A stretch of 64,000 nt of DNA from Defluviitaleaceae bacterium (GTDB lineage: Bacteria > Bacillota > Clostridia > Lachnospirales > UBA5962): NCBI GenBank assembly GCA_009779915.1, contig WRBA01000003.1, positions 62,001-126,000 of the forward strand, in the 5' to 3' direction. This document shows, piece after piece, positions 20,537 to 20,955 of the stretch. The notes under the pieces were generated by a model, which was not told where the DNA came from, made no database searches, and saw only the letters and a program-made list of their open reading frames with translations. Numbering within the stretch: the first letter of the stretch is position 1; each line of letters opens with the position of its first letter. Made by a program: the position numbers and the translations under genes.

Positions 20537-20608
20537 GGTTATACTGTATATATATGCTGTATATATACTATAAAAATGCTCACATTATATTTTATAAGGA
20601 GGTTTATT

Positions 20609-20890
20609 ATGAAAAAAGTTGTATTGTATGGAAGTCCTCATTGACCGACCTGTGATCCGGCGAAAGAGGTTCTTTCCCAGAAAAATGTTAATTTTGCTTA
20701 TGCGGATATTACATCTAATATGTTATCCCTTAAACAGTTTTTGAAAATTAGAGACAATAATGAAAGTCACAAAGAAGCCAAAGAAAATGGCAGGGTCGGC
20801 ATACCAACTTTATCTGTAGACGGTGAAACTTACATCCTCGCAGGGGCGGAAGATACTGAAAAGATGATAAACGAGCTAAACCTAGTTTAA
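20609..20890 (+). CDS. Selenocysteine-containing glutaredoxin-like protein
   Basis: 93 codons before TAA with an in-frame TGA at 20642-20644 (codon 12). Reading TGA as selenocysteine gives VVLYGSPHUPTCDPAKEVL, placing U exactly where the first Cys of the glutaredoxin CxxC redox motif belongs (U-P-T-C). The rest supports the fold: a second beta strand NFAYADI, a helix, then GRVGIPTLSVDG with the cis-proline of thioredoxin-fold proteins. A hairpin follows the TGA at the position of bacterial SECIS elements. AAGGAGG stands 8 bases before ATG and a terminator follows. Selenoglutaredoxins are known in Clostridia. An unaware gene caller would miss it or call a pseudogene. Predicted cytoplasmic thiol-disulfide oxidoreductase. 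Confidence 0.88.
20645..20680 (+). promoter_or_regulatory. Candidate bacterial SECIS hairpin
   Basis: GAAAG (20662-20666) and CTTTC (20672-20676) close an AGGTT loop, extended by GG/CC (20659-20660 with 20677-20678) across a bulged C. The loop GG is about 24 bases after the TGA, within the window known for SelB-recognised bacterial SECIS, and its sequence recalls the AGGUCU loop of E. coli fdhF. Confidence 0.65.
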
Positions 20891-20930: not shown

Positions 20931-20955
20931 AAAGCCTCCTATTTGGAGGCTTTTT
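20931..20955 (+). terminator. Rho-independent terminator after the selenoglutaredoxin
   Basis: AAAGCCTCC-TATTT-GGAGGCTTTTT, a stem of about 9 bp followed by T5; it separates the gene from glyA. Confidence 0.85.

Follow-up and report, generated by a model that had tools for sequence, protein, structure and literature searches.

A predicted selenocysteine glutaredoxin of a Defluviitaleaceae bacterium with a recoding hairpin conserved in Clostridia

In the window, by which we mean the whole 64,000-nucleotide stretch that was analysed, a small reading frame starting with an ATG at 20609 meets a TGA at codon 12 (20642-20644) and then stays open until a TAA at 20888-20890. This raises the question whether the TGA ends the gene or is translated. 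With the TGA read as selenocysteine (Sec), the frame yields a product of 93 residues, MKKVVLYGSPHUPTCDPAKEVLSQKNVNFAYADITSNMLSLKQFLKIRDNNESHKEAKENGRVGIPTLSVDGETYILAGAEDTEKMINELNLV. The source genome is a draft of 2.45 Mb in 63 contigs, listed as 93.6% complete. We consider it very probable (about 0.97) that this is a monocistronic selenoprotein gene in which codon 12 would be recoded as Sec by SelB and a SECIS element; recoded codon, SECIS, machinery and fold are established at the level of sequence comparison. The features of the locus are the following:

20609..20890, + strand, Sec glutaredoxin gene, 93 codons plus TAA (PF00462, homologues, AlphaFold2 model)
20596..20602, + strand, ribosome-binding site AAGGAGG (sequence)
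20642..20644, + strand, TGA read as Sec, residue 1 of U-P-T-C (aligned with the first CxxC Cys of all Cys homologues)
20651..20653, + strand, TGT, resolving Cys15 of UxxC (Cys in 18/18 Sec genes)
20662..20676, + strand, SECIS apical hairpin GAAAGA-GGT-TCTTTC (18/18 Sec genes in the same register; bSECIS constraints; codon fixation)
20931..20955, + strand, terminator-like hairpin AAAGCCTCC-TATTT-GGAGGCTTT with T tail (by-eye reading)

The AAGGAGG lies 6 nt before the ATG, in agreement with the ribosome site described in an earlier note on this DNA. The same note had proposed a terminator. A terminator-like hairpin can indeed be read by eye downstream of the TAA, but it is absent from the output of the scan tool. 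The gene stands unaccompanied between gltX and glyA (neighbour names by sequence reading), and a gene neighbourhood comparison of 14 Sec loci revealed no neighbour that is conserved. An Rfam search across the locus gave no match.

Pfam Glutaredoxin (PF00462) was matched across the TGA with 39.9 bits (gathering cut-off 22.9). The AlphaFold2 model, based on a 37-row alignment, shows a glutaredoxin fold with a mean pLDDT of 94.2, the redox motif where helix 1 begins (helix at residues 15-24 after the motif) and an extra helix at residues 52-59. The full-length thioredoxin-fold protein that had been suspected around the TGA is thereby borne out, and the name glutaredoxin is right for fold and Pfam family. 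The best small-protein PDB match by VIA-align was cGrx1 of Clostridium oremlandii (7c10; Z 10.4, 75 aligned residues, rmsd 1.7 A). Native cGrx1 is a Sec glutaredoxin and 7c10 its Cys version (PMC7642778). Both proteins come from Clostridia and share the glutaredoxin fold and a U-P-x-C motif whose N-terminal residue is Sec. The sequence match, however, covers only residues 2-46 of the window protein (E 4e-5), which with 93 aa compared to 84 aa adds a conserved LKxFLKxRD...VGIP segment including helix 52-59.

Sec glutaredoxins of the UxxC type have been known since 2005 (reports 2005-2006), and one is studied biochemically and structurally. The bacterial PF00462 representatives (Sargasso Sea set, PMC1088965; PMC1794560; review PMC13188914, representative WP_010943784) have the Pfam family, the UxxC and a bSECIS right behind the UGA in common with the window gene. 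The UXX-star families (NF041114, NF041211, NF041212) are likewise small and glutaredoxin-like, and U occupies the N-terminal position of their active site, but the window protein missed these models (30.7, 27.2 and 19.7 bits against cut-offs of 66, 72 and 100), and its family is characterized by U-x-x-C with a resolving Cys. No NCBIfam model reached its cut-off for the window protein.

Homologues were searched in 392 order-level and 391 class-level genomes and in one named contig collection. They are 26-60% identical to the window protein over the full length. A TGA at the first CxxC position was found in 18 genes of 18 Clostridia genomes, the window's genome and 17 others; identity of the products to the window protein, in those measured, is 36-60%. 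By contrast, 42 other homologue rows (a few of them near-identical) carry Cys at this position. Since Cys homologues of the CPDC/CPTC type align there, the claim that the TGA takes the place of the first redox Cys holds. Conservation of the protein is continuous through codons 1-45 and extends over the full length beyond the TGA. Among the TGA carriers with names are a MAG of the Defluviitaleaceae (WRBF01000001) and Candidatus Aristotella avistercoris, which both belong to the Clostridia. selB scored above cut-off in 4/4 order-level TGA genomes tested vs 4/16 other genomes tested. Of 13 class-level TGA genomes, 10 had a tRNA-Sec above 60 bits; its absence from the TGA-bearing drafts G519, G603 and G657 (listed as 88, 80 and 95% complete) is attributed to incomplete assembly.

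Six further genomes (G472, G499, G543, G446, G594 and G549) gave weaker matches, namely glutaredoxin-like frames with one in-frame TGA and low subfamily scores, which may represent Sec glutaredoxins outside this subfamily. A close Cys relative from the same order (G024, L021 1492-1791) reads CPDN, a monothiol variant which has lost the resolving Cys, in a genome with selB. Scanning contigs with the single window protein as query gave no match, and no homologue was found in phages. Seven loci were found on viral contigs, and those translated are ordinary Cys glutaredoxins of other subfamilies. The plasmid collection gave four matches; the two that were read, from Acetoanaerobium noterae and Fusobacterium vincentii, carry Cys and lack a TGA.

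Behind the TGA of the window gene, the stem GAAAGA (20662-20667) / TCTTTC (20671-20676) closes the loop GGT (20668-20670), which is separated from the TGA by 23 nt. A hairpin GAAAGA-G[G/T]N-TCTTTC is located at +20 to +34 from the T of the TGA in all 18 Sec genes. In 16 of them, including one whose inner pair opens to give a 5-nt loop, there are 6 or more pairs and all are Watson-Crick; the other two contain one G-U each. In none of the 42 Cys rows is the hairpin formed. Constraints published for bSECIS elements are a loop of 3-9 nt, an upper stem of 4-16 bp, a G in the first two loop positions, a distance of 16-37 nt from the UGA and an MFE of at most -7.5 (PMC13188914). The window hairpin satisfies them with a GGU loop of 3 nt, 6 bp, 23 nt and -7.8 kcal/mol. 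Folded alone, it is not significant compared to shuffled sequence (z -0.45), so a SECIS could not be proven from this single sequence; it is the conservation across 18 genes that proves it. The hairpin of the earlier note thus exists and is of bSECIS type, but lacks significance as a single-sequence fold.

The hairpin also fixes the codons that encode it. Glu is GAG in 18/18 genes, compared to 28% in the remainder of these genes (P 9e-11), Leu is CTT in 18/18 vs 20% (P 3e-13) and Ser is TCN in 18/18 vs 30% (P 5e-10), P values that are too small as related genes are counted as independent. At the protein level, Ser occupies the hairpin-encoded position in 18/18 Sec genes vs 1/42 Cys rows. The outer pairs differ among genes and still pair in many of them (UA, GC, CG); this covariation is modest because the core never varies. 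In the protein, the RNA hairpin would impose a KExLS motif. This motif may be new, and so may the subfamily, which has the extra helix and no matching NCBIfam model. In one genome without clear tRNA-Sec (G633), the homologue L071 has Cys, yet the AAA GAG ... CTT codons of the element are kept while the stem is broken, so that the locus resembles a SECIS in decay.

The machinery for Sec insertion is encoded outside the window, as had been predicted for selA, selB, selC and selD. Contig C13 carries a selA-selB-selC operon with adjacent genes for SelA (462 aa) and SelB (636 aa, 371.5 bits) and, directly behind them, a tRNA-Sec of 66.5 bits with the anticodon TCA (ARAGORN). selD was found on contig C25 (378 bits). 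It is itself a selenoprotein gene in this genome, with its own in-frame TGA in CASGGUTAK (L048 1323-1325). A glycine riboswitch (51.6 bits) follows immediately after the tRNA-Sec gene. Farther along C13, a few kb past selC, lie grdB (497 bits; L096 39-1280) and grdA (269 bits; L096 3014-3484). Both genes have an in-frame TGA at their known Sec motifs (UxxC and CxxU), and the space between the two is taken by trxB and trxA. With selABCD present, Cys homologues aligned and a bSECIS-type hairpin in place, the earlier reading as a Sec glutaredoxin with U-P-T-C stands. Neither of the two findings it had named as speaking against it, absence of selABCD or a sequencing error for TGT/TGC, was encountered.

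Could the TGA nevertheless be something else? The window comes from a draft of 63 contigs and the gene is otherwise an ordinary glutaredoxin, so a TGT/TGC misread in sequencing or assembly, or a pseudogene, might come to mind. The chance of this is practically negligible, as 17 other genomes have the same TGA, the hairpin is restricted to TGA genes and the protein is conserved over its full length after the TGA. Alternatively, the TGA might be a true stop, with a second protein translated from the ATG at 20720; the mechanical ORF list indeed contains only this downstream remnant of 56 aa (20720-20890). No ribosome site is evident before 20720, however, conservation is unbroken from codon 1 to codon 45 and the protein would lose its redox motif, making this explanation very improbable. 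Sequencing error, pseudogene and ordinary stop are excluded by the conserved TGA, the SECIS and the fixed codons. Genome-wide reassignment of UGA to Trp, Gly or Cys would fit a TGA where relatives have Cys, and recoding of the tRNA-Cys(UCA) type occurs in nature. TGA is, however, the stop of 7 of the 48 long window ORFs and is therefore not globally reassigned; the canonical selA, selB, tRNA-Sec and selD of the genome and the TGA-specific hairpin likewise argue for site-specific recoding, and we regard reassignment as hardly credible.

A different matter is what the Sec protein does. A role other than disulfide reduction, e.g. binding of metal(loid)s or Hg as suggested for UXX-star, would be in line with the weak UXX-star profile match (30.7 bits, cut-off 66) and with glutathione synthesis (PF04262) not being found. 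This role appears unlikely, since the resolving Cys is present in 18/18 Sec genes, as in dithiol redox proteins, and the flanking ORFs, inspected by eye, include no recognised metal-resistance neighbours. The U-x-x-C with its invariant resolving Cys points to the preferred function, a predicted dithiol-type (selenol-thiol) redox chemistry. In the proposed mechanism, the ribosome would reach the UGA at codon 12, where SelB, docked on the hairpin that follows after 23 nt, would deliver selenocysteyl-tRNA(Sec), and translation would continue to a thioredoxin-fold protein of 93 residues with the redox motif U-P-T-C. The selenolate at position 12 would presumably attack a disulfide or another oxidised sulfur, and Cys15 would resolve the intermediate to give a Sec12-Cys15 selenenyl-sulfide, followed by re-reduction. 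Glu-Cys ligase (PF04262) was not found in the genome listed as 93.6% complete, which makes a glutathione-dependent glutaredoxin activity doubtful. As thioredoxin reductase and thioredoxin are present, along with MsrA, the thioredoxin system or other thiols are favoured as electron donor; the reductant would be thioredoxin/TrxB or a low-molecular-weight thiol taken up from outside, and not glutathione of the cell's own making.

In a maximum-likelihood tree built from 58 rows, all 18 Sec genes cluster with 7 Cys genes in a single group of 25 members (support 90/93), and 6 state changes are needed; the tree was computed from only 101 columns and is unrooted. Because hairpin sequence and register are the same in all Sec genes, an early gain of Sec followed by several losses is likely, as far as can be judged from a short and unrooted tree. 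The genome G002, of the same family as the window's genome, holds both copies of the subfamily, a Sec version with U-G-S-C and a Cys version with C-A-D-C (L020, L050). We consider it possible, at slightly less than even odds, that these genes form an undescribed Sec glutaredoxin-like subfamily with an extra helix, a likely early or single gain in Clostridia and repeated reversions from Sec to Cys, in which the SECIS dictates KExLS and this imprint is lost together with Sec; the listed Sec glutaredoxins entered this comparison by description only.

Under the standard code, gene callers would fragment the gene, and together with its 17 relatives it is likely missed or truncated in public annotation, NCBIfam scores being below cut-off here. 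The tree group of 18 Sec genes and 7 Cys genes, including the genome with both copies, constitutes a compact case for Cys/Sec exchange, in which an amino acid sequence is visibly constrained by an RNA hairpin.
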